DNA of 64,000 bases from Mesostigma viride (taxonomy: Eukaryota > Streptophyta > Mesostigmatophyceae > Mesostigmatales > Mesostigmataceae). Of the stretch, positions 1 through 57,742 are shown one piece after another; the first letter of the stretch is position 1; every line of letters starts with the position of its first letter. The DNA lies in NCBI GenBank assembly GCA_009746045.1, contig RPFO01000667.1:5496719-5560718 (forward strand), written 5' to 3'. Below the pieces are notes generated by a model. The model ran no database searches. It saw only the letters and a list, made by a program, of their open reading frames with translations, and was not told the DNA's origin. A program made the translations under genes and the position numbers.

Positions 1-3000
1 GCAGCTCCGGCGCGAGAAGGAGGAGACGCTCCGCAAGATCTCTGCCAAGATGAAGGAGGAGGAGGAGGCCCGGGCGGCGGGTGCCGCCGATGGCAGCCGG
101 CCCACCAAGGCGTCGGGGGTGGGGCTAGCGGGGCCATCGGGGGATGGGGCGGGCGCGGCGGGCGCGGCTCGCCCGACGAAGAAACGGAACCGATGGGACC
201 AGCCGGTGGAGCCGACGTGCGTGGGTCGCTCCAGCTCGATTTGTTCTGTGTTTTGGTGTGTTGTTCTGTGCCGTCATGTGTTGTTTTCTGCTGTATTGAG
301 TTGTTTTGTGCCGTTATATGCTGGTCCTGTAAATCAACGTGGGTGGGCTTGTTTGTTTTTTTTCCTTGGTCGGGTCCGTTCTTTTTCTCTTTTAGGGGCA
401 CAATCACTTCTGGAGTTGTATGGACTGAATGGAATTTGAGACCACCGTCCACAGCCGTGGGTCAGTAGACGCTGATAGCAGTGGGTGTAGGCTCTCTGAT
501 CATGATCGCGGTGTCATCAGGCGCGTGCGCATGTATTCAGTTATGCTCGAGACAGCCAGCGCAGGCATGACATTACTATACCATAGTGACCATAGTTATG
601 ATCGAGACAACCAGCGCAGGCATGACATTACTATACCATAGCGACCATGGTAGCAATAAGACAACCAGCGCAGGCCAGAAGTCTGGATAATCCTGACCAT
701 GGTAGCTCGAGCCGGCTCTAGTCTCATCCGCGTTTGTTGAGTCTAATCATGTTTGTTTGGACCATGGGCCCCTTGGGTAGCTTACGGAGCCGAGCAGCTG
801 CTCCCCATGTGTTTGGGGACTTTCTCGGCTGACACGCTCATGCGTCTACAACGACACGCTTGCGGTGTGATGACTGACACGCTCGCATCTGACATTGTCT
901 TTGTGTGTGGTATGTGCATGTTGTCCCCGCTTCTTCTCTTGTATGGGAACTGCGTTTTCTACGTGCTTATAATTTGGGCGTCCCAGCGTGGCGGCGGCGG
1001 CGGCTCCTTTGCCAGAGAAACCTGCAAAGTCAGCGCCGGGCTCTGAGTGGGAGGGCGTTGAGAGCACACCGGCCATCAGGTACGGTCGCATGTATTGCCA
1101 CGCCGGCGATCAGGTGCGGTCGCATGTCATGTCACGCCGGCCATCAGGTACGGTGCAGCAGACTGTGTGAGGCTCGTCATGTCTGCGTATCCAGCTACTT
1201 TCAGATTGAAAATAATTGTGGCATCATTTCATTTGTATGACCGTGTGTTTCATAAACTAGTATCTGGTTGCTGTGCATTCTTCATGGATGAATTAATTAA
1301 TGAATTTATTAGTCAGTCACGCAGTCCCCTTGATTCATCAGCCGCGGAGCATCAGCCCTCAGTGTTCTTGATCGGGCAGTGGCATGCCAAGCGTCCTTGA
1401 TCGGGTGTGATTGCAACGCCGGTTCGTCTGCATGTGAGGCAGCAGAAAGCAGTGTCACCACCGGTTGTCGATGCCCTGGGTGACCTCCCGCGCTGAAAAT
1501 GCTTCCCTTGAGTTCGCCCCCTGCAGCCAGGACGGAAACTTGCTTGTCGTGCCTGACACAAATGACCTCCACAAATGAATGATGTCCCTTCCTAATGAAT
1601 GACGATGATGCCATCCCTTTTTCTCCCCCATCCTTCCAGCCGCTGGGACGCGACACCGGGCCGCTGGGACGCGACACCTGGCCGGCTGGACGGCACCGAT
1701 GCCACCCCCGGCCCCCGCCGCAACCGCTGGGATGCCACCCCCACCCACGACGCCGGCGGGGCCACCCCGGGGCCCGGGATGACCCCCGCGGGGGCCGCCT
1801 GGGACGCAACCCCCCTGGCCGCTGGCGTGACCCCCACCCCCAAGCGCTCCAGGTCCCGCTGGGATGAGACCCCGGGGGGGCAGACGCCGGGCGGGCAGAC
1901 ACCTGGCGCGACGCCGTCGGTCGGTTTCGGGGTCACCCCCGCGGGTGGGGCGGATCTCATGACGCCCACGCCGGGCCACATCAAGGTCCCAATGACGCCC
2001 GACCAGCATAACCAGGCGCGGTGGGAGCGGGAGGTGGAGGAGCGGAACCGGCCGCTCTCGGATGAGGAGCTGGACGCGATGTTCCCGGCGGAGGGCTACA
2101 AGGTGGGTGCGGTGGGAAGTAGATAGCCCGGAAGTAGACGGGCTATCTGTTTGGTTCTATGTCGATATTCTCCACTAGGCGATATTCCCAGCAGAGGTGT
2201 GCGCGGTGGGGAGTGGTGCGGGGGGAAGTAGGTAGCCCGGGAGTGGGCTAGCTATTTGTTAGCGATACGTTGATAATCTCCAGAAGTCCATTCCCCTGAC
2301 GAAAGCTTCCAGGAATTCCGTCAATCATACATAGACTGAAGTGAACGCCTTCCTCCTTTTTGTCCTGCCCCTGCCTTCCCCCGTTCCCCCCCTTTCTCAC
2401 CGGCCCTGTCCCCCTATTTCTCCCCTTCCTCCCCGGCCCTTTCTCCCCGGGCCTTTGCGCCCCCCTTCCACCTCGCCCGGCCCCTTCCCTGTCCTCAGAT
2501 CCTGGAGCCTCCATCGACCTACGTGCCCATCCGCACGCCCGCGCGCAAGCTCATGGCGACGCCGACCCCCATCGGGGGCACCCCCCTGTACCAGATCCCT
2601 GAGGAGGACCGCGGCCAGACATTTGACCTGCCGCCCGAGCTGCCCGGCGGCCTTCCGTCGATGAAGCAGGAGGACATGCAGTACTTCGGCGCGCTGCTGA
2701 ATGAGGTGGACGAGGAGGCGTTGTCGCCCGAGGAGGCGGCCGAGCGCAAGATCATGAAGCTGCTGCTCAAGGTGGGTGGGCTCGTTAGATATGCTCTGGT
2801 TATATGTATGTCCTAGTTGTTTATATAAGAGTTGCCGAGCGCAAGATCATGAAGCTGCTGCTAAAGGCGGGGGGAGTCGCCCTGGGATGATGTGACTAGG
2901 GGAAATGGGGGATGTATAGGGGGACCACGGCTCCCCAACGGGACTGGTTGATCAATTCATGATAGGGGGACTACGAAGCTGGTGAGCAAGTTGGGGGGAG

Positions 3001-6000
3001 TGGCCATGGGTAAATTTGATCACGGGAATAGGTGGATGTATAAGGGGACCGGGACCAAGAAGCTGTTGGTAAAGCTGTAAGGGGCACGAACAAGATGCAG
3101 CTCATGTCATAACATGGATAGGAGTTCTGCATTTCGTCATTATTCTGCAGGTAGTTTCGTCCTCCCCCCCTTGCCTGATGGCGCGCCCTTAAACCATTCA
3201 CCCACCCGTACCTTTTCCTCCCTCGCCCCTTTCCTCGCCCCGTTCTGCTCCCCCCGCCGTTCTCCCCCTCTGTGCACCTCGTTGCACCCCCCCCATCCTC
3301 CTTTTGCCCCTTTTGCCTCCCCCCGCCTGCCCCCCCCCCCCCCCCTTGACCCCCCGCAGGTCAAGAACGGTACCCCGCCCCAGCGCAAGGCGGCGCTCCG
3401 CCAGCTGACGGACAAGGCGCGCGAGTTTGGCGCGGGACCACTGTTCAACCAGATCCTGCCGCTGCTCATGTCGCCGACGCTCGAGGACCAGGAGCGGCAC
3501 CTGCTGGTCAAGGTGGGTGGGGGTGCACAGGAGCAGGTGGTGAGGGGCAGTAGGTAGGCATGTGACCTATGTTCATAGGATGGGGCGACATGTGCTGTTC
3601 AAGGTGGGTGCCTGAATGTATCGTGCACCACGTCATGAGTGTAGGTGCTTTGCATCGAGGGAATATTAGGGAGTGGGGAATAGGGGATATCGAGGGAGTA
3701 TGGACCAGGGAATAGGATTAGGGAATAAGGAATAGGGAATAGGGAATAGGGAATAGGGAATAGGGAACATTGAGGGAATATTCAGGGTATATTGTGGGAT
3801 TAGGGAAGCAGCATTGCCGCGTCAAGGTGGGTGGGTGCTTTGCATTTGTGGTCATTTTTGCTTTTTATGTAAGGGAACAGGAGCTCATGGAATGCTGCTC
3901 AAGGTGGGTCATTGACCGCGTGCTATGCTGGCTTTTTTGTCCTTTCTTCCTACTCTATCTGCTATGCATGTACTAAATTTAACATACATTTGTATGAAAT
4001 ATTCATATGCTATGGTATAACTAAAGTAAAGCCCCGCCGAATATATCTAGTGGTTGTGCTGGGCCATTGACCGCGTGCCTTGAAGCTGTTTCTGATCCCA
4101 CTATTTTGCGGTATCTCTCGCGGTGTCGCTTTTATTACATCACGCCAGGTCATTGACCGCGTCCTCTACCGCCCCTTGAAGCTGTATCTGATTCCCCTAT
4201 GGTGCTTTATCTGTTGCTTGGTTGCCTTTATGACATCGCGCCAGGTGATCGACCGCGTGCTCTACCGGCTGGACGAGCTGGTGCGCCCGTATGTGCACAA
4301 GATCCTGGTCGTCATCGAGCCGCTGCTGATCGACGAGGACTACTACGCGCGCGTGGAGGGGCGCGAGATTATCTCCAACCTGGCCAAGGCCGCTGGGCTG
4401 GCCACCATGATCGCAGGTGAGGAGGGGAATGGGTGTAAAGTAAAGTCAGATTAATGCACATAGGTAGCACACTCCCTGTAGTTTCTTCATAGGTCTAGGC
4501 CGTGGGGCTCATCATCGTGATTGCGGGTAAGTCTGCTCACACTAATGCTTATACTGAGTATACTCATACTAGTGCTTATACTGAGTATGCTCATACTAGT
4601 GCTGGTACTGAGTATACTCATACTAATGCTTATTTGTAAGCAAGTGCCTATTTCTTCCGACCTGGCCAGGGCCGCGGGGCGGGCCACCATTATCGCGAGT
4701 ATCATGGCTGGCTTGATGATGATTGCCCGCGATGTGAGAGTTCTGTGAGTCACATTTCAGTTGATATGTTTGTTATAACGGATGAAGACCTTCACGAGGA
4801 CCTTTCAAGCCTCACTGGAGGAGAGGACAGGAGTGACACTTTTGTTCCCGTTTAGATTGTATGCCCCCATGCTGGCCCGGCGATGCCTTGTTGTATGCTA
4901 TCACCCGCATGCCATGCGCACCGACATTGACGTGTTTGGTTGCCCTCGTGCTTTGTTTATGCCCCGTGATGGTTCGCCTGGTTCATGGTGTGGCTTGTTT
5001 ATGCCCCTTTGGTAATTCCTTGTGCCGTCACCCATGCGCCCTTGCATTACTTGTTGTTCCTGTGGTCGCGCCTATGCTTGCTCATGCCCCGTGATGGTGT
5101 GGCTTGTTTATGCCCCTTTGGTAATTCCTTGTGCCGTCAGCCATGCGCCCTTGCATTACTTGTTGTTCCTGTGGTCGCGCCTATGCTTGCTCATGCCCGG
5201 TGACTCTGTTATCATTTCCATTACGGTCATGGTCATTTGTATTAGTATTATAATGGCTTCTATAATGACTTTGTTACTGAGCCTATCCCTGCGCCCCGAC
5301 ATTGCCCTGACATTCCATGGCGCTTTTGTCTTGCTGATGGCAACTTTGCTCGTGCCCCTCCACGGCTCATCGACACGCCCAGCCATGCGCCCCGACATTG
5401 ACAATGTGGACGAGTACGTGCGCAACACGACCGCGCGCGCCTTCAGCGTGGTGGCCTCCTCCCTGGGCATCCCTGCGCTCATGCCCTTCCTCAAGGCCGT
5501 CTGCCAGTCTAAGAAGTCATGGCAGGCGCGCCACACGGGCATCAAGGTGGGTCCACTCGTTTGCTTGTCCCTTCTCTTTTTTTTTGGCTGTCCTTGCTTC
5601 ATGGCTGTTAGATGGGCCATGACACACAGGCACCAGGGTGGGTCAACCTGTTTGGGTAATGCTCCGCCGCTCCCTAACGGGACTGCGTGACTAATTTATT
5701 GATTTGTTGACTTGTTTTGGCGTCCTTGCTTCATGGAAGTAAAATGGGTCATGGCGCACGGACATAAAGGGTGGGTGGATGGTCTCGTTGTCATGGCTAT
5801 TTGCCAGGTCTCTTTTTTTTTGGGGGGGGGGTGGCTATTTGCCAGTGCAACAGGCGTGGCGACAAGGAGGGCTCCTCGCGCAGTCCCTGGTTGCTTTGGT
5901 ACATGCTCACCCTCTGTTCAACGTGCTTCATTCTTTTGAATTTCCTTTATTATTTCTTTTCCTTTGACACGTGGGATCCCCGCGTGACACACGTGTCATG

Positions 6001-9000
6001 CTCACAACGTGCCAAATCGTTTACCTCATCGCCGTGGCTATCGCCACACGCCTCCCTTAATAACCACGTGTAACACACACTATTCGCTTCCCCATACTCT
6101 GCCCCCCCGAATCAACCCCCCTCCCACCTCCCCCACCCCCACCCCCACCCCCACCCCACCCAAGGCCCCCAACCCCAGATCATGCAACAAGTGCTTTGCC
6201 ATTTTCCCTTTAATGATTTAATTAGTCTCGTGTCCCCGTACTTTCCCCTTACTCACTCCCCATCCCCCCCTTCATTCTTCCTTTCATTTCCTCATGACTA
6301 TAGTATGAATATTGTATTAGATTATTTTAGATTATATTGTATTACGACTACATAAATTTCCCATCTTTGGCCTGTCCGCGTACTTTTCCCACCCCCCGCC
6401 TCCGCCAACCCCAGATCGTGCAACAAGTCGCCATCCTCATGGGCTGCGCGGTCCTCCCCCACCTGCGCGGGCTGGTCGAGATCGTGGAGCACGGGCTCAA
6501 CGACGAGAACCAGAAGGTCCGCACAATCACCGCTCTCTCGCTGGCCGCGCTGGCCGAGTCCTCCGCGCCCTACGGCATCGAGTCCTTTGATACCGTGCTC
6601 AAGCCACTGTGGAAGGGCATCCGGTCGCACCGCGGGAAAGTCCTCGCCGCGTTCCTCAAGGCGATTGGGTTCATCATCCCGCTCATGGACGCCATGTATG
6701 CTAGCTACTACACCAAGGAGGTCATGGTCATCCTCATCCGCGAGTTTGCGACGCCGGACGAGGAGATGAAGAAGATCGTGCTGCGCGTCGTCAAACAGTG
6801 CGTGGGCACCGACGGCGTGGAGCCTGAGTACATCAAGGCCGAGATCCTGCCCGAGTTCTTCAAGGCGTTCTGGGTGCGCAAGATGGCGCTGGACCGACGC
6901 AATTACCGGCAGGTAAGGCCAACGCGCCCGAAAAAGCACCCTTATGCTTTATGACACCTAATAATTCTAATACCAGCAACATGCTCTATGACACCTAATA
7001 ATACTATTACCAGCAACATGCTCTATGACACCTAATAATACTAATACCAGCAACATGCTTTATGACACATAATACTACCATTACCAGCAACATGCTTTAT
7101 GACACCTGATAATACTAATAGTAGCACAATAATTCTTATTTGTAGTAATATTACTTAGTTATGCGTTCTATCTCAGCGCTTCATCTCGGAACCATCTGGT
7201 GCACCGTATGATGCCTAATAGCACGTTCTAGTATAGGCTTTAAGCTCAGACCATTCGGTGCACAGCTACTTGGGCGTGTTGTACGCTTCTTACCTTTTTT
7301 ACCCCTATGCTTTAGACCCTACACTCCAACCTTTGAGCCCTGAACCATCTGATGTGCAACACGGCGCTCCGCCGCCGCCAAGTATCGGCAGGTAATGGCA
7401 GGTACACAACCATGGGAAAACCGGAGCCCTTCACCCGGAGCCCTACACCTTAGACCCTACCACCCGGCACCCTATGTCCTCGTTATGGTAGCTTACTGTG
7501 CTCTGGTGCAGCCTATCTTTCGCAACCTGGCGCAACAGTTTGGCAATTGAAGGGGGTATGGCAACCAAGGGGTGAGAAAGGGTGCTCCTATTGCTCGTGC
7601 GTAGGGTCTTCTATCTTAACCGTCTTATCTAGGTTTTGCCTTGCAATCCCCCCCCCCCCCCCCTGCGGGTCTCATCACTTGCCCGCTGTCTAATCTTTAT
7701 TCTGATCCCTGGTCTATTTTTTCTTTCACTTTTCTAGCAAGTATTTTCCTTGGTCCCCAACTCCTCTCCCCCATTCCCCCCAGATAAGTGTAATCCTCTC
7801 CTCAGATTTATCTCCCCTGCAATTGTAATCCTGCTCACACCCCCCCCCCATAAAGTCTTCAACTCCCCCTCAACTTTAGTTCCCTCCCAAATCTAACTCC
7901 CCCCCAACTGAAGTCCTTGTCTTCCCTTTCATCCCCCATCTGCCCCCCCCAGGTGGAGGGACAGTCCCCCTGCCCGAAATCCCTTGCCAATTCTAACAAC
8001 GGAATTCACCCAACTCGCATTCCCGTCCCCCTCCTTCCCCCCCCAGGTGGTGGACACCACGGTGGAGCTGGCCAACAAGGTCGGCTGCTCCACCATTCTG
8101 GGCCGCATCGTGGAGGACCTCAAGGACGAGAGTGAACCGTATCGCCGCATGGTCATGGAGACGATCGAGAAGATCGTCTCCAACCTGGGCACCTCAGACA
8201 TCGATGCCCGCCTGGAGGAGCTGCTCATCGATGGCATTCTCTACGCTTTCCAGGTGGGTGCTTCCGATAGTAGTACCACTACTGCGAATAATAACAAAGC
8301 AACAGTAATAGTAATTCTAGTAATAATAATACTGATATATTATTGTATTGATATTAGTACAAATGATACATTTTCTTCTGATAACAATAGTAGCAATATT
8401 GAGGTCCTGTGTGCTTTCCCGTATACTTAACTGTTTTGAGACCCGATCTTCTTTCCGCATTTGCTGGGGCAAGCGCGTTATGCTGTACCCTTTCTTGTGT
8501 TTTGTTTTGCTTTGCTTTGGAACCCTGGGGCTTGGCTGATTCCCTCGAACCCGCTCCTTTTCTCTCCATTCCTTGGTCAAGCACAGCATGCGGCACTATC
8601 CTCCTCGCTGTGTACAGGGGTTGAGGGTTTTCTTTTTGGTACCCATGTGACACAGTCTACGTGCTTTGCATTAATTCATTCATCTGGCACTATCTGCAAC
8701 ACCTTCCAGGTAGCGTCCTGGGCGTACCCTATTCTCTCACGGTTTATCATCATATTTAAAATAGAACTAATGACAAAATGTCTAAAGCGAGTAGTCTTTG
8801 CCTTGACGCAACTCCGGCTCCACCTTTACCTCCACCCACACTCACACCCACCCGACGCCTACTGTCCCTTAGCCCCCTACCCAACCCCTATACCTAATAT
8901 GTGTAGGAGTGGTGAAGCCCCCTACCCACCCCCCACCATTCACCCCCTGCCACCCATCACCCATCCACCCACCCTATAAAACAGTTACTACCTCCAACCC

Positions 9001-12000
9001 CTCAACCCCCCCCCCCCCTTGCATATCACTCCCCACCGCCGCCACCACCATAACCCTCCAACCAGCCGCGTTTGTGAACCCTCAGTTCAGCAGGAGCAAG
9101 CGGGCAAGCAGGCGTGGGGTGGCTAACCCTCATTGTCTTGTACATTACAATACTCCCCCCCTCCTGCCTCTTTTCACTTTAATTATTCTTCCAACAGGAG
9201 ACCTACGCGATTCTATTCGGTTTTGTTATTGAGGCTGTTTCGGTACTGTGGGTAACCCTATGTATGATCTCATCCCGCCCCCTCCCCCCTCCCCCTCCCC
9301 CCTCCCCCCTCCCCCTCCCCCCTCCCCCCCCCTCCCCCCTCCCCCTCCCCTCCCCCTCCCCCCTCCCCCTCCCCCCTCCCCCTCCCCCCTCCCCCTCCCC
9401 CTCCCCCTCCCCCCTCCCCTCCCCCCCCTCCCCCTCCCCCCTCCCCCCTCCCCCCTCCCCCTCAACAGGAGCAAGCGGGCGAGGAGACCTACGTGATGCT
9501 CAACGGGTTCGGCACCGTCGTCAACTCGCTCAAGGGCCGCGTGAAGCCCTACCTGCCCCAGATCGCGGGCACCATCAAGTGGCGGCTCAACAACAAGAGC
9601 GCCAAAGTGCGCCAGCAGGCCGCCGACCTCATCGCGCGCATCGCCGTCGTGATGCAGACCTGCAACGAAGAGCAGCTCATGGGCCATCTCGGGGTGGTTC
9701 TGTACGAGTACCTCGGAGAGGAGTACCCCGAGGTGCTCGGGTCGATCCTCGGCGCGCTCAAAGCGATCGTGAACGTGATCGGGATGACCAAGATGACGCC
9801 CCCGATCAAGGACCTGCTCCCCCGGCTGACGCCGATCCTCAAGAACCGCCACGAGAAGGTCCAGGAGAACTGCATCGACCTGGTCGGCCGCATCGCGGAT
9901 CGCGGCGCCGAGTTTGTACCCGCGCGCGAGTGGATGCGCATCTGCTTCGAGCTGCTCGAGATGCTCAAGGCGCACAAGAAGGGCATCCGGCGCGCCACCG
10001 TGAACACGTTCGGCTACATCGCCAAGGCGATCGGGCCCCAGGACGTGCTGGCCACGCTCCTGAACAACCTCAAGGTGCAGGAGCGCCAGAACCGCGTCTG
10101 CACCACCGTTGCCATCGCCATCGTCGCCGAGACGTGCCTCCCATTCACCGTCCTCCCCGCGCTCATGAACGAGTACCGCGTCCCGGAGCTCAACGTCCAG
10201 AACGGCGTGCTCAAGTCGCTCTCGTTCCTGTTCGAGTACATCGGCGAGATGGGCAAGGACTACATCTACGCCGTCACCCCGCTGCTTGAGGACGCCCTCA
10301 TGGACCGCGACCTGGTGCACCGGCAGGTGAGGCCGGAACTGACGCCCCGCAGGTAAAGATGGAACGGGTTATTAGTTTTACGATGTGCCCTCTTGGTTCG
10401 TGCTGTCGCATGGGTATTCCACTGGCTGACCTTGTAGACCTTGTAGACCTTGCAGACCCTGTAGACCTTGTAGACCTTGCAGACCTAGTAGACCTTGTAG
10501 ACCTTGTAGACCTTGTAGACCTTGTAGACCTTGTAGACCTTGTAGACCTTGTAGACTTCGCCTCTCACCTGCTCCCCTTCCCCCTGCCCCTTGTCTCTCC
10601 CCCGTGCCTCCCCGCAGACTGCCTCCTCTGCCGTCAAGCACATGGCGCTGGGCGTGGCCGGGCTGGGCTGCGAGGACGCGCTGGTACGTGTAATGCCTGC
10701 CCTATTGGAAGCATCCTCCCTCGTTTAGGGGTTGAAGCTTCCTTTATTGGTACCCACGTGAGGCAGTGCAAGAGAAGCTAGAGCGCCCTCCCTCCTCGTT
10801 GTGTATAGGGGTTGAAGCTTTCTTTATTGGTACCCACGTGACGCAGTCCACGTGCTGTTAATTGATGAATAGGCAGCATCTACTATGATAGTTGATGAAT
10901 AGGCAGCATCTACTATGATAGTTGATGAATAGGCAGCATCTACTATGATAGTTGATGAATAGGCAGCATCTACTATGATAGTTGATGAATAGGCAGCATC
11001 TATCTTATGGATGGATCCCGCGACGCGTGTCATGCGGCAGACAACATTTTGGTAATCCAACCCATTTTTAGAAGGGGGTTGACTTGCCAAGCCGTAGGAT
11101 GCGCGCCGATCCAGGCTTGTGTGGTACCAAGACGTTATGGGCGGCCGGGCCTAGAAGGGGGTTGTAGAGATGCTCAAGGATAGCTGCTCAAGCATTGCTG
11201 CTCAAGCATACCTGCTCGAAAAGCTCAAACATACCTGCGTGCCTGTTCAATTTATCAGTTAACTTTCAAACCCCCTTCTCCTGCATGCATGCTGCGCAGA
11301 TCCACCGGCTCCAGTGCGCGTGGTCCAACCCGCCTGGCCCTTACACCACACTTTTATGTCTGTTCAATTATTGTACAACTGATCACACAACCCCTGCTGC
11401 ATGCAATCCGCGCAGGTCCACCTGCTCAACTACGTGTGGCCGAACATCTTCGAGACGTCGCCGCACGTGATCAACGCGGTCATGGATGCCGTCGACGGCA
11501 TGCGCGTCGCGTTGGGCCCCTGCCGCGTGCTGCTCTACACCCTACAGGTGTGTTCATTCGCACTTGCTTCCTCCATCCCGCCCCCTGTTACCCAGAGCCC
11601 GGGCCACATCAGTTTTATTAATCAATCAATCGTCATGACTGGGGCTTGAAATTCTTGACATCGTAAGAGTGCAGAGGAGGAATGCTTGTGTCACGGCTCA
11701 AGTTCCCTGCTGTGGTAGTTGGGCACTTGGGTAATGCTCGACATCACTTGAAGTCATTTTTGTTGCTTGTAGTCGTCTTCGTTGCTTGTAGGCGTTGTAA
11801 GATGGGTGTTCTGGGCATGTCGGCAACGAGATTTGGTGAAGTTTTCTTGGAATTTATTTTGTGTGACTCTGGCCCTTGCAATTACGTGTATGTTGTAGCT
11901 TCGGGGGCTGTTTTGTGGGAGCCTGCACAGCATTCGGTACGAAGCCACGGTGGTGGGTCCCCTCAGCCCTCTCATAGCTGACACTTGAGCTTACTTAGTA

Positions 12001-12381
12001 ATGGGGGTTGGTTACTGGGTCCAATACCTGGCTACTGCCTGGTTAGACAGACCAAGGCTCCGTGACGGTGAGCCCCGGAGAGGGTTGGGGTCCTTTTGCC
12101 AAATAGTAACGTTCTCATCGCTGACATCGACTTTGCGTTGCTTTGCTGTTTCGAATCTCCCATTTTCTCGCCTCGTTTTCTCGTCTCTTTTTCCTTTGCC
12201 GCTGCCCTCCCCCCCTTGCCAGGGTCTCTTCCACCCGGCGCGCAAGGTGCGCGAGGTGTACTGGCGGATCTACAACAACTTGTACATCGGGTCGCAGGAC
12301 GCGCTGGTGGCGTTCTACCCGACCATCGAGGATGAGGGCCCGAACACGTTCAAGCGCCACGAGCTGTGCATGGTCATCTAG
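1..12381 (+). CDS. SF3B1: SF3B1, splicing factor 3B subunit 1 (5'-partial, 12 exons)
   Basis: Core HEAT-repeat protein of the U2 snRNP SF3b complex, which grips the branch-point/U2 duplex in the nucleus. Exons inferred from protein similarity and phase: 1-216, 1640-2102, 2499-2771, 3360-3512, 4245-4416, 5383-5546, 6415-6912, 8047-8253, 9469-10326, 10618-10683, 11416-11547, 12223-12381 (stop TAG). They encode about 1119 residues, so roughly 180 N-terminal residues lie upstream, judged against the human protein of about 1300. The first exons hold the disordered region with repeated RWDATP/RWDETP motifs, known ligands of UHM splicing factors. The HEAT region is highly conserved: QKVRT in exon 7 keeps the lysine equivalent to human K700, and the K666-equivalent lysine is the last codon of exon 6. 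All introns are GT-AG, often GTGGGT donors, and are unusually full of decayed copies of neighbouring exon edges. The identity is very secure; exon ends may shift by a few bases. Confidence 0.96.
3700..3776. repeat. 7-bp tandem repeat in SF3B1 intron 4
   Basis: Short run of agggaat-type heptamers in an intron between two decayed copies of the exon 4 end. Confidence 0.8.
4985..5206. repeat. Two ~110-bp direct repeats in SF3B1 intron 5
   Basis: Two nearly identical consecutive units (about 4985-5092 and 5096-5206) differ at a few bases. Each contains ccatgcgccc, resembling the start of exon 6 (5383), so the array looks derived from the downstream exon edge. Confidence 0.8.
6942..7125. repeat. 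37-bp minisatellite in SF3B1 intron 7
   Basis: About five units of roughly 37 bp (tatgacacctaataatacta core followed by accagcaacatg) just after the exon 7 donor. The rest of the intron, 7126-8046, holds a degenerate copy of the exon 7 end at about 7366-7400 and C-rich tracts before exon 8. Confidence 0.85.
8567..8680 (+). mobile_element. SINE-like short interspersed element, copy 1 (SF3B1 intron 8)
   Basis: Shares with copies at 10728-10865, 22680-22830 (-), 46865-47010 (-) and 53766-53875 a core reading roughly GTGTATAGGGGTTGAAG, then GGTACCCACGTGACGCAGT, then an AATT-rich end. The CACGTGA/TCACGTG halves can pair as a 3' hairpin. No coding capacity. The family is unnamed; SINE or LINE 3'-end fragment are both possible. 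Confidence 0.6.
9279..9466. repeat. (CCCCTCC)n low-complexity tract before SF3B1 exon 9
   Basis: Nearly pure C/T tract of about 190 bp. It ends at the exon 9 acceptor and may serve as an extreme polypyrimidine tract. Confidence 0.9.
10432..10556. repeat. 9-bp tandem repeat (TTGTAGACC)n in SF3B1 intron 9
   Basis: About thirteen nonamers in the short intron between exons 9 and 10. The open frame across it (LVDLVDL) is a repeat artefact. Confidence 0.9.
10728..10865 (+). mobile_element. SINE-like element, two tandem partial copies (SF3B1 intron 10)
   Basis: Two copies of the GGGGTTGAAGCTT...GGTACCCACGTGA segment at about 10728-10775 and 10805-10865; the second has the fuller CACGTG hairpin and an AATT-type tail. 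Confidence 0.6.
10862..11001. repeat. 30-bp minisatellite in SF3B1 intron 10
   Basis: About 4.7 units of a 30-bp repeat (ttgatgaataggcagcatct core). It starts exactly at the tail of the SINE-like copy, so it probably grew from that tail. Confidence 0.9.
11073..11218 (+). repeat. ~145-bp dispersed repeat, copy 1 (SF3B1 intron 10)
   Basis: Nearly identical to 34685-34832 in an intron of the PKA gene (I see a single base difference, tta-t/c-ggg). No ORF and no clear terminal inverted repeats. The internal motif tgctcaagcat is itself repeated. Confidence 0.85.
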
Positions 12382-13589: not shown

Positions 13590-13728
13590 ACGTCATTGGA
13601 ATTAAATTAAAATTAAAATAAATTATAACATGCCTCCGTTGGGAGATCATGTAGCACATATTCCTTGATGGGTGGTGGAGTGGGGAGATCGAACTAACCT
13701 AACGCTAATCTAGCTAGTCTAGAAAAAT
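13590..13728 (-). mobile_element. 5'-truncated RTE-like LINE, KRRRRFDE family, 3' end only
   Basis: Reverse complement of the 3' UTR seen at 49010-49130: AT-rich tail at 13590-13630, then the CTCC-GTT-GGAG hairpin and the TAGCACAT box. It breaks off at about 13728, next to the oppositely oriented LINE A. Confidence 0.75.
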
Positions 13729-15955
13729 CTTCGTGGATTACACCAAGGCATTCGATACGGTTACCTGGGACGCCCTGTGGGTGGTCCTTCACCTGTTCCG
13801 TGTCCCATCGTACATCGTTGAGATCATCCGCCAGTTCTATGAAGGGTCCCAAGCCCAGGTCCGTACCGCCGACGGCGTCACTCCGGCGTTCCCCCTGCAC
13901 ACCGGGGTGTGGCAGGGCTGTGTGCTCTCCCCATATCTATTCATCATTATGGTGGACTATATTATGCGGCGTGCACAAGCCCGCTTCGCCTGGGTGGAGG
14001 GGCGCCCGCCGGGGATCGAGATCACGGAGTACGCCAGCTACGGCGGGGTTGACCCACCCTACCGCCTGAGCGATCTGATCTACGCTGATGACACGACACT
14101 CGTGGAAACCCCAGAGTCAGCCCAACTGTGGCTAGACAGCTTATCACTGGAAGCGCGGGCGGTGGGGCTTATGATCAGCAAGAAAACGGAGGTCATGGCC
14201 ATCGGCTTCCCTGCTGGGATAGCCCCACCCACCCTCCTCTTGCTGGACGGCAGCCCCGTCCCCCCGGCGACTCGCTTCAAGCTCCTTGGCAGCTGGCTTC
14301 CCTCCACGGCCGACGACATCAACACCCGCATTGGCCAGGCCTGGGCGGCCCTCCGCCGCCTCGACAGGTTCTGGACCTGTCGCTACCTGAGTGAGCGACG
14401 CAAGCGCATTCTGTTCAAGGCCCTTGTCCTCAGCATCCTCCTTTATGGCTGCGAGGCGTGGACCCTGGACCAGGCGCTGAGCCAGCAGCTTGACGGCACC
14501 GTCACTCGAATGCTCCGTCATATCCTCGGCGTCCGCTACCAAGAACGCCGCACCCGGGCCGAGCTCTACTGCGAGCTCCCTCTTGTCACCCATACCATCC
14601 GACACCTTTACGCCAGTACCGGGCCCTGTGGCGCAAGCCCCTGGGCAAGATCGAGAAACAGGACCTGTTCAAGGTCCTCGTCCTTCCTGTTCTCACGTAT
14701 GGCGCCGAGACGTGGACCCTCACCGCCGACCTGGCCCGCAAGCTGGACGGCGCGGTCACCAGCATGCTGCGTTCCATTTTCAGAGTAGGATATGCTGCTC
14801 ATGTCCGCAATGAGGACCTGTACCAGGGCATGCCCTATATCACCAGCACAATTAAGCAACGCCGCCTGCAGCTAGTAGGGCACCTAGCTCGCACCAACCA
14901 GGTAGACACCTCACGTGGCCCCCCCGCAGGACTGCGACCAGCCCAGCCTGGCCGGCACCTCCTGACGTGGGCTGGGCCCAGTAATGTTAGACGCCGCAAG
15001 GCCCGCACCTTCAAGGAACAGCTAGTAGAGGACATGGGGGGCCTAGGCCTCTCCGTGATTTGGAAGAAGATGATGGACAAGGCCAAGTGGGCCCAGGTCA
15101 TAGAGGACAACGAGCCCCCCCCAGTGGGGAAGCGCCCGCGTGTGCAATCCCGCGGGAGGCACGCTAGATAGCTCCCCCTAGGGCAGCGTGCGGCTGCCTA
15201 GATAGATGTTGTAGTTAGAATGTTGTTAGATAGATGTAGTATGTAGCCAATGTAGATAGATTAGACCGGTAGGAATGTGTGCACCCATCCATCCATCCAT
15301 CGGGGTTAATGCTCCGTGACTCCCCAACGGGAGCACGAGTCTAATTAATTAATTAATTAATCCGACACCGCCGCCTCCTCTTTGCCGGCCATCTTGCCCG
15401 CACAGACCAGGTGAATACCGATGTGGGCCCTGCCGGGGGGCTTAAGACGGGCCAACCAGGTAGACACCTCCTCCTATGGCAGGGTCCCCTTGTCCCATCG
15501 CAACCCACTGGCAAACGTGCGCGTGCCGGGCACCGGCGCGGCGCGACCCGGACCTATGTGACACAACTGCTTGAAGATGCAGGGCTTCTGGGACTATCCG
15601 TACTCCGCGCCCGCATGATTGACAAGGAGAAATGGGCTGCCATCTGCGATAAGCACCTTCCCGAGGGGTATATGCTCCTGTTTTCTCCCCACGGGCCCCG
15701 CGGCCCGTTGCTAGCCAGGGTAGAAGTCCGCAGGTGGAGGTTATTGGTCCTGAGGATAGCCGCTACACTACCGCCTTGTCTGCCATTACAGTAGAGGACA
15801 GCTCGGATGAGGATTACATCCCCATCTAGTGCTTAACGGTTGGGGGATGATGCAGACGATATTTGTTTAAACTTTTGTGTAATTATTTTTCTAATGAGAT
15901 TAGCATAGTACTCCGTGGCATGCCTTTGCGCATGACACGCAATTACTTACTTACT
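13729..15955 (+). pseudogene. LINE A: RTE-like reverse transcriptase, interrupted by LINE B
   Basis: 5'-truncated non-LTR retrotransposon. RT motifs in order: FVDYTKAFDT (palm, Asp), GVWQGCVLSPYLF, YADDTTL (catalytic DD), KTEVMAIG, FKLLGSWL, then the C-terminal RTE-type LYGCEAWTL and RRLLFAGHLART. The frame runs from 13733 to 14606, is broken by a 753-bp insertion, and resumes in the same frame at 15370, ending at 15794. The 3' UTR ends in a (TTAC)n tail near 15940-15955. The RTE affiliation rests on C-terminal motifs and the microsatellite-like tail. It lacks the endonuclease domain, so it is dead. Confidence 0.85.
14607..15359 (+). mobile_element. LINE B: 5'-truncated LINE inserted in LINE A
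   Basis: Flanked by the 10-mer atccgacacc at 14597-14606 and 15360-15369, an exact target-site duplication within the LINE A ORF. It carries the RT C-terminus of a second family (GKIEKQDLFKVLVLPVLTYG ... SMLRSIFRVGY, stop at 15171), a short 3' UTR, a GTGCTCC/GGAGCAC-type 3' hairpin at about 15310-15338 and an AATT tail. The 3' hairpin matches sequence at 28717-28752 (-). Confidence 0.9.
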
Positions 15956-24797: not shown

Positions 24798-26622
24798 TTA
24801 ATTAATTAATTAATTAGGAACATAACTCCGTTGGGAGTATATGTAGCACATAGCCCTGAGAAGGGGCATATGGGCCTATAATACATTCTAAGCTACTTCC
24901 TGCAAGGGTGGGAATGTAAACAACACTTGCTCTAGGTGCACCAGGGCACCCGCACCCTCATGGTCTATCACGCTATGCCCGGGTAAGGGGGGAGCATGCC
25001 TGTGAGGGGGAAGATCATCATGGCTATACAAGAGCTATGGCATGGCTTCTCAGCAGAGAGTGACTCCCTGCATGGGCACAACATTACTAAATAAGGCTAT
25101 GCATCGTCTGGAGTGTGGCACATCATAGGCACACATGTACATGATTAAATAAAGCGCGGGGCTTAGCTGGGATAGTGCCTCTAGGAGGCGTACATGTACA
25201 TGGCCACGGTCTATCTATTCTGCACTACTACTGCTGTATTCCCCTAAGCTGGGGCGTCTGGAGTCGCTGGGGCCGCGGGGGGGGGGGGGTCGCCTGCCAG
25301 GGCTTGTGGCCGACGTAGATGGCCGCCCCCTTCCAGTACACCGGCTGCCCCGCCTTGGTCTGCCGGAGCTCGAGGTAGGTCGGCCATAGCTCCCGTCGCC
25401 GTTGTTGCTGCGCCAGGGTCAAGTCGTCATCAAGGGTGAAGAGAGTCTTCTCGAGCCGCTTGCGGCGTCTGAGAAAAGAAATCTTGTCCGCCGGGGTCTT
25501 AAAGGTGAGGAGGAGCGGGGGCGGCCCTGCCTTACCCCGCGCGCGGGGAAGGCGGTGGGCAGCCAGCTCTATCTCACCGTTAAGGCCCATGCGACCAAGG
25601 ATTTCTCTCTCAAACGCACGCAAAAGCTTCTCGGAATTCTCACCTTCCTCCATCTTGAAGTTCTTGACAATGACGTTGAGGCTGCGCTTGGCGAGCTCGG
25701 CCTCCTCGCGGAGGTCAAGCGTCTGCCGTTGAAGCTGGGCTGCGACGGCGGAGGTGGTGGAGGTGGTATGTTGCTTAAGCATGTCCGCCCAGGTGGTGAT
25801 GGGAGGAGCATCGCCGGCCAGGCCAGCCGAGGCTGGCTTGGCGGCAATGTCCTTCACCGCCTGGGCGGTGAGGCCTGCGGTATTCTGCAGAACCTCGATA
25901 GCAATGGCGTTGTCCTTAAGACGCTGGTCGATGTCACGGAGCTGGGCGGTGATGGCGTCGGAGGTGGAGGTGGTGGCGGTGGAGGAGGCGAGGAGGGTGG
26001 AGGTGGCGGTGGAGATGGTGGAGGTGGCGGTGGAGAGGAGGGGGAGCTCGGCAGCCAACGTGCTGCCCATGACCGCCACATCTGCTGCGATGGGGGCCAC
26101 GTGCTGCTCGAGGGCCTCCTTGAGGAGTGAGCGGATGGAGGATTCGGTTAAGGTGGTGGTGAGGGGCTTTGGGGGCCAAAGCTCCTCGAGGGAGCGGCCG
26201 AGGAGGGAGAAAAGGACGCGAATCTGAAGGTGGGGGCGGCGGCATTTGAGGATTTGGTCGAAGTTGTGGGTGCGTCTCTGGAAAGCATCGGTGAGGCGGC
26301 CCTGATGGAAGAGTTGCTTGCACATCTCGAGAAGCGAGGCATACGATCCGAAAAACACGTAGCTCAGGATCTTGTCGGGGTTGAGCTTGTCAAAAAAGCC
26401 GGGCTGGCTGGCGTCAAAGTCGAACTCCTCCCAGGTCGGCTCGGCAGGGCGACTGCGCTTGGGTTCAGGCGACGCTGCTGGCGAGGCGGCCAGCGGGGGC
26501 TGGGCGACCACTAGAGCTTGGCTAGTGGCGCCGCTGCCTTCTGGACCGGTTGGCGAAGCTGCAGCCGGGGCTGCAGACGTATTTTCATTGCTAAGCGCAG
26601 CCGCCAGGCTGCGTTGCGTCGA
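24798..26622 (-). mobile_element. ORF1-only non-LTR element (half-LINE)
   Basis: Exact 10-bp flanks catgtgataa at 24788-24797 and 26623-26632. On the minus strand the order is ORF1, about 430 bp of 3' UTR, a 3' box (TGTGCTACAT-like, then CTCCCAACGGAG hairpin) and an AATT tail. No reverse transcriptase is present between ORF1 and the tail. The 3' UTR matches 49457-49742 (+). Confidence 0.8.
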
Positions 26623-26625
26623 CAT
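25228..26625 (-). CDS. Retrotransposon ORF1-type RNA-binding protein, 465 aa
   Basis: Intact 465-codon frame. The N-terminus is Ala/Pro-rich, then a region LRDIDQRLKDNAIAIEVLQNT within a serine/threonine-rich stretch that may form a coiled coil. The C-terminal half, LNVIVKNFKMEEGENSEKLL ... RAFEREILGRMGLNGEIE ... RLPRARGKAGPPPLLLTFKTPADKISFLRRRKRL, resembles the RRM plus C-terminal domain layout of L1-type ORF1 proteins, which coat the element RNA. The apparent ATG lies inside the target-site duplication, so the element itself supplies codon 2 onward; the native start may be lost. Paralogous decayed copies lie at 19718-20212 and 29180-30322. The intact frame suggests recent insertion. Function is by analogy. 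Confidence 0.75.
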   Translation of the reverse strand: MSTQRSLAAALSNENTSAAPAAASPTGPEGSGATSQALVVAQPPLAASPAASPEPKRSRPAEPTWEEFDFDASQPGFFDKLNPDKILSYVFFGSYASLLEMCKQLFHQGRLTDAFQRRTHNFDQILKCRRPHLQIRVLFSLLGRSLEELWPPKPLTTTLTESSIRSLLKEALEQHVAPIAADVAVMGSTLAAELPLLSTATSTISTATSTLLASSTATTSTSDAITAQLRDIDQRLKDNAIAIEVLQNTAGLTAQAVKDIAAKPASAGLAGDAPPITTWADMLKQHTTSTTSAVAAQLQRQTLDLREEAELAKRSLNVIVKNFKMEEGENSEKLLRAFEREILGRMGLNGEIELAAHRLPRARGKAGPPPLLLTFKTPADKISFLRRRKRLEKTLFTLDDDLTLAQQQRRRELWPTYLELRQTKAGQPVYWKGAAIYVGHKPWQATPPPPRPQRLQTPQLRGIQQ

Positions 26626-26680
26626 GTGATAAGGTAGACCATATTAGAGTTTGCTGTAAGGCGGCCCACACGTATGATCG

Positions 26681-28667
26681 AAGTGAGACAGCTATGCCTG
26701 GACGCATGAATGCACATGTATACGCAATGACCTTCCTTTATTCCATTTTTGTTTTTGTTATTATTATTACTCTTTACTTTGTTTTTATTAATTTTTGTTC
26801 GTATTATTACCTATTACATTTTCTTTTCTTTTTTCTTTCTTTCTTTCTCTTTATTCTTTTTCCCTTTGTAATGTATTAAATTAAATTAAATTAAATTATA
26901 ACATGCCTCCGTTGGGAGATCATGTAGCACATATTCCTTGATGGGGGTGGAGGTGGAGGAAGCCGCGTAAAATCGAACTAACCTAACTCTAAGCTATCTA
27001 GTCTATAAAATCCCAACTACACTACTCAGCAAAACGCCCCTTCCTCTTGGGGGGGGGTGGCTTGCCCACAGGGGCTGGCGTGTGAGCCTGGACAATCTTC
27101 TGCCACCGCTTCTTAATTGTTCTGCATGGCAGTCCAAAGAAGGGAGAGGGAGTGGATGCGGTGTTCAAACTGAGCTGGAACCACGAGGTCGGCCAGCAAC
27201 ATCTGGGTGTAGTTCATGGCAGGTTTACCTAGCTTCCTGGGAATGTCCTTGGGGCCAGGCCAGGTCAAAATATGCCGCCCTGGCTGGCCAAGCCGCTGGG
27301 CGCCGGCCAGACCAAGGGCGGTGTCGACCTGGCTGGTGCGAACAAGATGTCCTACACATGCTACCCTATGCTGCCTAATCTCGTCCGAAATACGAGGCAT
27401 GCCCTGATACAAAGACTCTAATGACCTACGCTGGGAAAACCCTACATTCAGGACCTGTCGGAGCATCCTGTAAACTGTGCCCGGTCTAGCTTAGCTGCCA
27501 GTGTGTCCGTGAGTGTCCACGCTTCGGCGCGCCATATAACGTGAGCACCGTGAGGACGAGGACCTTGAAGAGCATGCGCTTGCGGTGCTCGCCCAGGCCC
27601 CTCGAGCACCAGTAGGTGTTGAGCGAGCGGAGCCTGGCCCAGGCCAGGCCGATGCGGATGTCCACAATGTCGTCGGCGGTGTCAGGGAGCATGCTCCCCA
27701 ACAGTTTGAAGCGGTCACGGAATGGGACCTCCATCCCGTCGAGCAGGCGCGGCAGCGGTGGGCGACTGGAGGCCCCAATCACCAGCGCCTCAGTTTTGAC
27801 ACTAAGGCTCCAACCCCACCGCCCTCGCCTCCAAGCCCAGACAGTCCTGCCAGGTCTGAATGTGCTCGGGGCGCGCGATCAGGGTGGCCGGTGTCGTCTG
27901 CATAAATAAGGTCAGCCAGGCGGTAGCCAGTGCCAAACCCGCCGTGTCCGCGCTCGTTTAAAAGGATGTCCAAGCCGGGCTCGAACCCCGAGCAGTAATT
28001 AAGCGCGCACGTGCCCAGCGCATGACGTGATCCACGACAATAATGAACAGGTATGGGGATAGGACAAAACCTTGCCACACCCCGTGGTGAAGGGGGAATG
28101 GTGGGGTGCTGCCTTCCGCAGTCCGCACTACTGCCTGTGAGCCCTCATACAGTCAACGAATGGCAGCAATAAACGCTGGTGGTACCCGATCCAGAGCTAG
28201 GATGGCCCAAAGAGCCTCCCAGAGGTCCGTGTCAAAGGCCTTGATATAGTCGACAAAAATGAAGCCCAGCGGCAGACCATCAGGGCAAAGGCGACGCACC
28301 TCCTCCATCAACCGGAGCGTGACAAGTACAGCAATGTATTGTATACTCCTTACTTATTCTTTTAGCCCCTTCGTGTATGTGTGTATGCGTTCCCTCTTTT
28401 CCTTCTTAGTTTCGGTTGTTTGTGTTGGTCGTGGTGGTGGTGGTCGTGGTGTGTGTATGTCACGTGTGTGTGCATGTGTATGTGTGTATGTGTGTTTTCC
28501 CTATCAACCTTTCTTGTAACCGGCCCCCTGTCTCCCTCCATGCAGGTCTGGCCTAGAGATATAGCCACGCGGCTCCCGCAGCCTTCGCGTCTTTCCTCTC
28601 AGACAACTGCCGTATAGTCCTTCCACGGCGCTGGATCGCCATGCGTCCAGGCATAGTTGTCTCACTT
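26681..28667. mobile_element. TIR element copy split by a LINE
   Basis: 28-bp inverted termini: AAGTGAGACAGCTATGCCTG... at 26681-26708 and its complement at 28640-28667, one mismatch. Removing the LINE at 26878-28332 leaves about 0.5 kb with no transposase. The same termini occur at 13430 and 16207. Confidence 0.65.
26878..28332 (-). pseudogene. RTE-like LINE, KRRRRFDE family, degenerate, antisense
   Basis: 8-bp flanks aatgtatt at 26870-26877 and 28333-28340. On the minus strand: a 5'-truncated RT (FIFVDYIKAFDT near 28240, GVWQGFVLSPYLFIIVVDHV near 28060), frameshifted across the palm and fingers, then RSLNTYWCSRGLGEHRKRML and the C-terminal block with PVGKPPPP, then the 3' UTR, CTCC-GTT-GGAG hairpin and (AATTT)n tail. 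Non-functional. Confidence 0.85.
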
Positions 28668-28699
28668 CATGTATATACGCATCCTCATCGACACTGTAC

Positions 28700-28752
28700 A
28701 TTTATTAATTAATTAAACTCGTGCTCCCGTTGGGGAGTCACGGAGCACCAGA
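28700..28752 (-). mobile_element. LINE B-type 3' end, antisense
   Basis: AATT tail at 28700-28716, then ctcgtgctcccgttggggag and tcacggagcac, i.e. the GTGCTCC/GGAGCAC hairpin. The body further right (to about 28970) has no recognised ORF. Confidence 0.65.
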
Positions 28753-29099
28753 GTGCTTTTAATCCCTCAGCCGTTTTAAATTGTGTGCATGCGCACAACT
28801 GAGGAAGACGGGCAGAGACCCCCTTTCTCCTTGATGCCTGAGGCATGCCACCGCAGCAATCGGACACGATCGATAGACGATCCGGCAAGTTCTGTGGGTG
28901 CAATAAGACCCATGTGAGCATATCATAACAAGGAGGCGTGGGCAAGTAATCTGATCATAGCCAGGACGTAGCATGGCTGTACAAAGGCTAAGCTAAGTTG
29001 GCTATCTATGGCTGGTTGTGTACCGTGCGTTAGCGGGGCACGTGACTAGGTATGGTGGCTCGGCTAGGCAAACATTCTAGGCATGGCTGCCATGGCGGC

Positions 29100-29180
29100 A
29101 GTGCATGACTACCAATGATTCAAGCTAGGGCTATTCTAGCCCTAGCTGGAATAGCCCTAGTCACGTGTCTATTAATTAAG
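29100..29180 (+). mobile_element. Short LINE/SINE 3' end with hairpin and AATT tail
   Basis: AGGGCTATTC ... GAATAGCCCT forms a 10-bp hairpin just before tcacgtgtctattaattaag, the 3' signature of the NSGRGAHNP LINE family at 31575 and 49144. Confidence 0.55.
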
Positions 29181-30322
29181 TAATTAGCTATTCTACTAGC
29201 CCGCAGGGGGCGACCACATATCTTGTGGTTGATCATCATCAGGTCCCCGCCCCGGCCTTCAGTACACCTTGGGCTTCTGGGGGTCCTGCACTTGTGGCGG
29301 AGGTATTCAGGCCACAGGTCGCGTCGCTGCTGCTGCTGAGTGGGGGTCACTCAGGTCGTCGTCCAGCGTCCAGGTGAGGTCGTGCAACCTCTTGCCGCGA
29401 CGAGAGAGGAACCGCTGCTTGTCCTCAGGGGAGGGGAAGGTGAGCAGGACTGGTGGGGGAGCCGCCTTGTCCCGTGAGTGGGGAAGGCGGTGGCACCCGC
29501 GCAGTTCTACCTCACCTACCAGGCCCATGAGGGTAAGAATTAAGCTGGTTCTTGAGCTCGTCGGCAAGTGTGGTTGACGTCTGACACCTGGCAAGCTTCT
29601 GGGGGAAACGACGCAGCACCACTCGGCACTCGCGGCGAACGCGGTCGGTGGCCTCCCGTTGTTCGGCCTGGCGGTGGTCCTCCATGCAGCTCCTGGAGTT
29701 TCGTGGCGATGGCGTCAGTGGTTGAGGCGGTCACTGACCGGAGCAGGTCCGCGTATAGGAGAGCGAGGTGGGAGGTCGCCAGCATCCTGCCGGGGTGGCT
29801 GGGATGCGATGGTGGCCGTCTGCTCCGCTATCTTTGGGACCTGTGTGGCCAGGGCCTCTATGTGGGCGGTGATGGCTTCAAGCTTCTTCATGAGCACGTC
29901 GCACTTGCCCTCCACCTAGCTGGTTAAGGCGAGAGAAAAGTGAAGCGTGCGTCTCAGATGCCTGCGCCGCGGTGTGCAGCGCCGTGAACTGAGGTTTGGA
30001 GCTTGTGGACGACCTTGGTTTCGACATTGGAGACCCGGGCCTCCACCGTGTTGAGTGTCGTGTTCAGCGAGGTCAGCTTCTCAGCCAACGGCCAGGTCAC
30101 GTGCTCCTCCAGCGCTGCTCGGATGTCATCCTTGCAGAGGGAGAGAGCCGATCGATGTGGCTGCTGGCTGCGCAGGCCGGGCTGGGTTGCCGAGCTTAGC
30201 GACGAGGTCGTCGCCAGTTAGCTTGAAGAAGCTGAAAAGGATCTAGCGAGGTTGGAAAAGGATGGCGCGATGGTTGAATTCTAGCAGGGCGAGGAACTCC
30301 TCCACACTGTACATGGTGCAGG
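29181..30322 (-). pseudogene. Decayed ORF1-type copy, antisense
   Basis: The minus strand has MGLVGEVELRGCHRLPHSRD, KAAPPPVLLTFPSPEDKQRF, LTWTLDDDL and QQQQRRDLWPEYLRHK, colinear with the C-terminus of the 25228-26625 ORF but in shifted frames with stops. Upstream blocks resemble the N-terminal half (FSFFKLTGDDL region near 30200). Confidence 0.7.
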
Positions 30323-32550: not shown

Positions 32551-42361
<9,811 letters not shown>

Positions 42362-47015: not shown

Positions 47016-47135
47016 CATGGCCTAGTTAACTAGAAAAACCCAATTAATTAATTATAGGACCGCTGCAGACCGGCGTCTGGCAGGGTTGCGTCCTGTCGCC
47101 GTACCTGTTTATTATTGTAGTGGATTATGTTATGC

Positions 47136-47317
47136 CCACCCCAAGAGGAAGGGGCGTTTTGCTGAGTAATGTAGTTAGGAATTTCTAGACTAGCTAGCTT
47201 AGAGTTAGGTAGTTCGATTACGCGGCTTCTCCCACCTCCACCCACCCCGCATGGAAAATGTGCTACATGCATGATCTCCCAACGGAGGCATGTTGTAATT
47301 TAATTTAATTTTTACTT
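47136..47317 (+). mobile_element. LINE F: 182-bp 5'-truncated insertion in LINE E
   Basis: Flanked by ttatgttatgc at 47125-47135 and 47318-47328 (11 bp, exact). The body is the last codons and 3' UTR of the KRRRRFDE family, with the CTCCCAACGGAG hairpin and (AATTT)n tail. Confidence 0.92.
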
Positions 47318-48280
47318 TTATGTTATGCGCCAGGCACGCGCTCGCTTTGCTAGCATTGCAGGCCGTGCCCCTGGCCTAGCGATCACGAACGAGCTTGAAG
47401 AAGGGGGCCGACTATAACAAGGTTGGCTCCTTGATAACAAGCTAGCAGAATTTACTAGCTGACCTCATTTATGCCGACGACATCACGCTCATCGAGAAGC
47501 CGGAGTCTGCCCAACTTTGGCTCGAGGCTTGGGTGGTTGGTCTAGAAATCAGCCCCAAAACAGAGGCCCTGGCCGGCCCTCGGCATGGCAGGGCCCCCAC
47601 CCACACTTCGCTTGTTAGACGACACCGAGGTCAACTACCCTACTTCAGGCCGCTTCAAGCTGTTCGGCAGTTGGACAGCTCGATCCCGACTGCGAGGACG
47701 ACCTGACGACATGCACGGATCGGCATGGCGTGGGCGCAACTCCATGACCAGTGACCGCCGCTGGTGGAGCAACCCCGCCCCACCCCGGATCGTCAAGCGT
47801 CACCTCTTCAAGGTCGTCATTCTGACGATCGTGACCTACGGCGCCGAGACCTGGACACTTACGCAGGAGCTGCAGCAACGACTCGACGGCAACGTCACCA
47901 AGATGCTGCGCAAGGCCCTTAACATCCCCTTTGGTTTGCACATTAGTAATGAGGATTTGTACGCTGATTTCGGCCCTATGTTTCCCACATTCTTAGGCAC
48001 AGGCGCCTGGGCCTAGCCGGGCACCTGGCCCGCACAGATCAGGTAGACACATCAGATAGACTAGCTGGCACCAAGCCCGCCCAGCCTGGGCGTTATGTCC
48101 TCCGTCACCTGGCGTGCCCCAGGCCGCGCGCGGCACTAGGGCCGCCACCCGTGGACTAGTTTCGTGATTGACTCGGCATGGACATGTGCTAGGTACCCTA
48201 GACGTGACGAGCTCACACCTGGGCAGCCTCCGGCCTGGTTTGTCCGTAATATGGAGGCCTGCAGATGCATGGTGCGCAAG

Positions 48281-49742: not shown

Positions 49743-57742
<8,000 letters not shown>

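Follow-up and report, generated by a model that had tools for sequence, protein, structure and literature searches.

The window analysed here is a stretch of 64,000 nucleotides from Mesostigma viride (contig RPFO01000667.1, positions 5,496,719 to 5,560,718), in which genes for SF3B1, PKA, DHAR and ARL3 had been noticed in a preliminary description made from the sequence. According to that description, the introns consist of decayed copies of their own exon edges, splice sites included. The assembly of this alga comprises 441.8 Mb in 2363 scaffolds, its introns are long (1142 bp on average) and repetitive elements account for 30.1% of the intron space; the passages of that report on Mesostigma introns make no mention of exon-edge copies (PMC6947507). 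The copies, hereafter called echoes, are real in the sequence, are present in most of the genes sampled and include very young cases. They are probably a by-product of tandem duplication that acts on introns in general.

SF3B1 and the copies of its exon edges

The SF3B1 gene is well identified: the exons between 1640 and 12381 are in frame between splice sites in translation, and exon 9469-10326 matches the solved human SF3B1 in the PDB with an E value of 3.9e-172. The donor at 3512 and the last exon were set by hand, where the gene model gave 3539 and 12223-12306. The gene, its echoes and related duplications are as follows.

1640-12381, + strand: predicted SF3B1 gene (translation, splice sites, PDB match and gene model)
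1640-2102, 2499-2771, 3360-3512, 4245-4416, 5383-5546, 6415-6912, + strand: first six of the eleven listed exons
8047-8253, 9469-10326, 10618-10683, 11416-11547, 12222-12381, + strand: last five of the listed exons
ending at about 216: an earlier SF3B1 exon
2834-2879, + strand: echo of exon end 2739-2771 together with 13 bases of the intron (offset 95); exon part identical at 32/33 positions, donor GT now GC
3582-3610, + strand: echo of exon end 3512, offset 91
3807-3835, + strand: second echo of exon end 3512
3875-3909, + strand: third echo of exon end 3512, adjoining a copy of the start of the next exon (to about 3924)
4078-4171, + strand: tandem copy (unit, 96 bp) of 4174-4267, containing 71 intron bases, the acceptor CAG and 23 exon bases
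4492-4531, + strand: echo of exon end 4416, offset 110
4657-4696, + strand: second echo of exon end 4416
4985-5203, + strand: intron-only tandem duplication of 109 bp with 98% matches, the same type of event without an exon edge
5281-5304, + strand: echo of the exon start near 5383, offset 96; another at 4911-4931, offset 471
5623-5654, + strand: echo of exon end 5546, offset 91
6166-6192, + strand: echo of the acceptor and exon start 6415
9087-9111, + strand: echo of the acceptor and exon start 9469
9196-9223, + strand: echo of exon bases 9482-9509, offset 286
11278-11340, + strand: tandem copy (offset 116) of 11394-11456, spanning the acceptor at 11416 with GCGCAG kept; it was not among the pairs listed in the preliminary description

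The thirteen SF3B1 pairs that had been listed were re-aligned and scored against 2000 random windows taken from the introns of other genes, and eleven of them beat nearly all of these windows. Ten were matched by none (2834-2879, 3582-3610, 3807-3835, 3875-3909, 4134-4171, 4657-4696, 5623-5654, 6166-6192, 9087-9111 and 9196-9223), and 4492-4531 was equalled by three; the remaining two, 4066-4078 (15/2000) and 5757-5776 (18/2000), are weak. The proposed comparison with shuffled introns, a stricter test, used 60 nt of exon sequence alone: 7/20 SF3B1 edges exceeded all 200 dinucleotide shuffles of their own intron, some of the edges then being a few bases off. When an echo is defined strictly, as a copy of an exon edge in its own intron with a score of at least 15 for exon sequence, 5/11 SF3B1 introns have one, and more do so if the splice-site sequence is included.

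The copy at 4078-4171 is identical to 4174-4267 at 20/23 positions in the exon part and 55/71 in the intron part. At 3875-3924, the donor-side echo of exon 3360-3512 abuts the acceptor-side echo of exon 4245-4416, with GGT common to both, and this joint is best read as a deletion at the shared GGT that fused both arrays. A C-rich stretch of 190 bases with CCCCCTC repeats (9274-9463) lies immediately 5′ of the acceptor of exon 9469, and C runs are also found upstream of some other SF3B1 acceptors.

Echoes across the sampled genes

At the strict threshold, an own-intron echo was found for 37 of 285 exon edges, as against 0/285 in reversed introns and 1/285 in reverse-complemented introns. At least one echo is present in 32 of 144 introns and in 15 of 21 gene models, including 13 of the 18 helicase stretches, so that "nearly every intron" was an overstatement both for SF3B1 and for the sample. 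Among the other genes named in the preliminary description, PKA has echoes in 2/8 introns and a duplication that spans its donor at 41610 (41523-41637, - strand, offset 93, GTAGGT kept in the copy), whereas none of the four DHAR edges reached a score of 15 and the ARL3 echo at about 60062 was seen by eye only.

These counts refer to 21 partial gene models, namely SF3B1, PKA and DHAR from the window and 18 helicase-gene stretches of 10 kb (designated by L numbers) that were selected for a helicase domain and not for echoes; most matches with very long open frames were skipped, and 18 of the 40 listed were used. The gene models are our own predictions from a small predictor trained on SF3B1. Loci L002-L031 were used in predictor training and in the pooled histogram (8 loci were excluded from training), and were excluded from the intron counts. 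Nine retroelement-like or doubtful exons, models with fewer than three exons, and tails chained behind SF3B1, PKA and DHAR were removed by hand. Introns shorter than 60 bp or longer than 6000 bp and 3 of 288 edges (short exon) were excluded, which gives the 285 edges and 144 introns; L039 8492 and the matches with an offset above 1000 (L046 and L047) are doubtful and were retained.

The echoes have the form of local tandem duplications of genomic DNA. The offset of the nearest echo ranges from 28 to 1718 with a median of 112 bp, and is 150 bp or less in 28/37 cases. Homology continues for at least 10 bases past the junction into the intron in 43/57 echo matches, which indicates that genomic DNA, rather than spliced mRNA, served as the template. 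Of the donor matches, 29/32 are located in the first half of the intron, and of the acceptor matches, 23/25 in the second, the arrangement that tandem duplication requires. The match covers the full unit or more in young cases and less than half of the offset in many decayed cases. A diagonal scan of the window gave 953 direct local match pairs versus 19 mirror and 101 inverted ones, arrays being counted many times. Copies of spliced exon-exon junctions were also sought: 5/142 queries passed a loose test, of which four proved by eye to be an exon-end copy plus a chance match or noise, and the fifth was the meeting of donor echo and acceptor echo at 3875-3924 in SF3B1.

Mobile elements resembling introners, or another dispersed repeat, might instead have carried the splice-site copies, and some intron segments are indeed common to different genes (17 intron pairs). 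However, segments in common with introns of different genes are found in only 16/144 introns, none of the 13 listed pairs fills an intron, one of them reaches the end of a predicted L046 intron, and the echoes match the coding sequence of their own exon. This explanation is almost certainly wrong as a general one, and the introns examined already contradict it. Scans of the window for Rfam families and tRNAs gave no matches. A segment of 150 bp is common to an SF3B1 intron (11073-11222) and a PKA intron (about 34683-34832) with 99.3% identity; its two copies face opposite ways with respect to the transcription of their genes, and it is far more similar than the other shared pieces. Several copies of coding fragments like those of retroelements or dispersed repeats are found at 13727-15144, 25228-30217 and 47077-48977 of the window, including what we take to be reverse-transcriptase-like peptides.

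Tandem duplication is known as a source of new introns, as in vertebrate ATP2A1 and potato RdRp, according to the passages of PMC4974935 on these genes. In this classical route of Rogers, an exonic segment containing AGGT is doubled and one copy becomes the intron. The cases described there resemble the present ones in that short exon or exon-intron segments are tandemly duplicated together with their splice signals, and the mutation is of the same type; an 83-bp tandem duplication within an intron that left the gene structure unaffected is also described for potato (PMC4974935). In SF3B1 intron 3513-4244, an exon-end echo abuts an exon-start echo at about 3875-3924, which speaks for such an event. 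The classical route predicts, however, that the start of the intron resembles the downstream exon and its end the upstream exon, and this signature was present at a score of at least 15 in 1/143 starts and 0/142 ends (controls, 1/715 and 0/710). It is thus very improbable that the introns sampled here were created in this way: existing introns lengthen, the mark of a new intron is absent and the copies are intronic, beside their source edge. In Drosophila, tandem duplication was probable for 5/31 novel intron positions, as stated in the part of PMC2891723 concerned; there, too, local tandem duplication reshapes exon-intron structure, whereas the 37/285 edges with an echo in the present sample are at existing intron positions. 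Frequent short duplications in genes have also been described as internal gene duplication (Gao and Lynch, 2009, as cited in a passage of PMC4974935). Among the matches listed in literature searches on the duplication of splice sites or junctions, on introns that grow by tandem duplication and on intron tandem repeats of Mesostigma or algae (titles and beginnings of abstracts, most subscription journals being outside the search), the pattern was not reported, which is weak evidence for its novelty.

Tandem duplication within introns and at exon edges

Local direct repeats make up 18,655 of the 121,372 intron bases. A strong local copy (score of at least 25) was found for 221/1037 deep-intron 45-mers versus 8/145 exon edges, with introns of at least 1100 bp for the former and at least 700 bp for the latter. 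Arrays with units of at least 10 bp detected by Tandem Repeats Finder (TRF) account for 14.5% of intron sequence, 2.7% of exon sequence and 5.5% of the DNA outside gene models, which may hold unpredicted introns; coverage was 6.2% in an arbitrarily placed 7-kb stretch. In an intergenic control (11.2 kb of the window), repeat coverage was 0.6-1.4% at scores 16-25 and 0.0% at 30, as against 12-16% in introns. The excess of repeats in introns over other DNA is stated tentatively, because the intergenic control is small and the DNA outside the models may contain introns. Duplications lying wholly within exons, with units of 25-200 bp and a score of at least 20, numbered 0 in each of six settings.

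The window also contains large minisatellite arrays in PKA and DHAR introns (38273-40182 and 51524-53010; units of 45, 26 and 29 bp, up to about 52 copies) and a near-pure AGG trinucleotide run of about 480 bases (56473-56949). Like intronic minisatellites, the arrays described here are head-to-tail, with units from about ten bases upwards, but unlike them, some have units that each contain a splice site together with coding sequence. Two inverted paralogous helicase genes, L044 and L050, lie about 59 kb apart on contig C2; their exons align, their introns mostly do not and have few repeats, and one predicted intron is about 1.4 kb in one and about 0.4 kb in the other.

The expected number of edge crossings was obtained by sliding each duplication event randomly across its gene. 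For units of 60-200 bp with at least 90% identity, 6/36 events cross an edge where 7.4 are expected, so that the youngest events are placed much as at random, and strict tandem two-copy events behave likewise (2/10, expected 1.8). With direct repeats widespread in introns, these numbers do not support exon edges as the main route of intron growth, and the phrase "built from decayed copies of their own exon edges" goes too far. That serial short tandem duplications across splice sites exist and lengthen introns has been borne out, and such duplication as a route of intron growth is partly supported.

Several observations weigh against general intronic tandem duplication as the explanation. Units of 60-200 bp cross an edge in 10/20 events at 80-90% identity (expected 3.2) and in 9/18 at 60-80% (expected 3.1), that is, in 19/38 older events versus 6.3, an approximately threefold excess; for all ages the count is 25/74 (expected 13.7), for all events with a score of at least 18 it is 36/114 (expected 22.0), and for two-copy events 17/39 (expected 6.3). 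Short units of 25-60 bp with at least 90% identity are, on the contrary, depleted at edges (1/38, expected 7.5). Short exonic repeats do exist, such as a 21-bp unit in SF3B1 (1639-1689), and three arrays with units of at least 10 bp lie wholly in exons, none of them with units of 40 bp or more. Several echoes have an intron-side match of fewer than 15 bases despite a long exon side, and the gene models are predictions from the sequence.

Part of the excess is to be expected, since at an edge only the intron copy decays while the exon parent is under selection, which must favour detection there. In simulations with a frozen exon parent (11 ages, 60 trials per age and kind), the ratio of detection at edges to that deep in introns was 1.5 in the band of highest identity, 1.2 in each of the other two and 1.3 overall. 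The observed ratios to expectation are about 0.8, 3.1 and 2.9 from high to low identity, so the frozen-parent bias alone does not reproduce the pattern. Intron-only events of 60-200 bp are mostly young (30, 10 and 9 in the three bands), which suggests that deep in introns there are arrays that are fresh or have been homogenised. The remaining excess of old events at edges could stem from the disappearance of old repeats confined to introns, from constraint close to splice sites or from a modest but genuine preference for edges.

A real preference would mean that exon edges are favoured sites for duplication of units of about 100 bp, through pausing, R-loops, nicks or the AG|GT context, or that edge-crossing copies are retained longer. 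The excesses among two-copy, older and all 60-200-bp events speak for it, and the simulated detection bias of about 1.3-fold is smaller than they are. Events with at least 90% identity show no excess, however, though the simulated bias peaks in just that band, strict tandem two-copy events agree with chance, and strong copies are commoner for deep-intron 45-mers than for edges. The evidence is mixed, and such a preference seems possible but doubtful. A little more doubtful still is the fuller statement that units of about 100 bp are preferentially duplicated, or preferentially kept, where they span splice junctions and that echo-bearing introns are graded series of competing, near-identical sites; if it were true, intron lengthening would be a splice-site-directed ratchet in which the correct, intron-distal site must win. 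On these data, splice-site-directed intron building is a possibility and no more.

Decoy splice sites and the lengthening of introns

Among the clear young events are near-identical multi-copy arrays. In L038, a unit of 51 bp (36 exon bases and the donor) is present three times in tandem across a donor; in L040, a unit of 89 bp (29 exon bases and the acceptor) is repeated about seven times across an acceptor and one of 70 bp three times across a donor. The first exon of L038 matches Pfam Helicase_C. With its outer donor, the exons end in PMNSK and resume with DYIHR, presumably the usual helicase sequence at this junction, while the second donor would add VR and a stop. Because PMNSK-DYIHR reads on and the second donor gives a stop, the reading frame shows the outer donor to be the predicted true one.

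Pseudo-splice sites are left behind, as had been suggested: where the homology reaches the site, GT is kept in 15/30 and AG in 19/23 echoes, copies of one array being counted once. If the 34 preserved echo sites were used, 24 would introduce a stop, 7 a frameshift and 3 an open in-frame extension, and the outer site should therefore carry normal splicing. Of two identical duplicated donors, the intron-proximal copy tends to be favoured, and acceptor choice tends toward the first AG. These preferences would pick the wrong site here, and young arrays should thus carry a cost to splicing unless exon definition protects the full exon.

The preserved dinucleotides, and the stops that many of the sites would introduce, as poison sites do, also agree with the idea that selection maintains the echoes as regulated sites of alternative splicing or as poison sites. 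Against this, echo lengths show no clear preference for a reading frame (the 57 are divided among the three residue classes as 24, 18 and 15), the frame is kept on use at 3/34 preserved sites (poison sites would not need it), substitutions erode the copies, and intron-only duplications of this type adjoin them. Regulated use thus appears unlikely as the reason for the echoes.

General tandem duplication in introns, the explanation preferred here, would work as follows. Local tandem duplication would be frequent in the introns of genes and would give both two-copy events and minisatellite-like arrays. A duplication of tens of bases within an exon would usually damage the protein and be lost, whereas one within an intron would be tolerated. 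One that straddles an edge would be tolerated too, provided that splicing kept to the outermost donor or acceptor, the extra exon fragment, its splice site and the intron bases next to them being spliced out with the intron. Each such event would add one unit to the intron, typically 50-150 bp, and leave a decaying echo, and repeated events would give serial echoes. Echoes would stay recognisable longer than intron-only copies, because the parent coding exon is held by selection. The mutation would arise at the DNA level by replication slippage or repair of staggered breaks and would be fixed by drift, with continued use of the outer splice site. Fill-in repair of staggered nicks, as described for plants, would produce units that fit this size.

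The kind of mutation behind the echoes is known, and here it can be seen with unusual clarity. Lengthening of introns without transposons is rarely seen, because intronic duplications decay in both copies. Since one copy is held by selection at exon edges, echoes could be used to date duplications and would permit measurement of their rate. Introns with echoes may also serve as natural competitions among near-identical splice sites, as in L038 with its three donors 51 bp apart.

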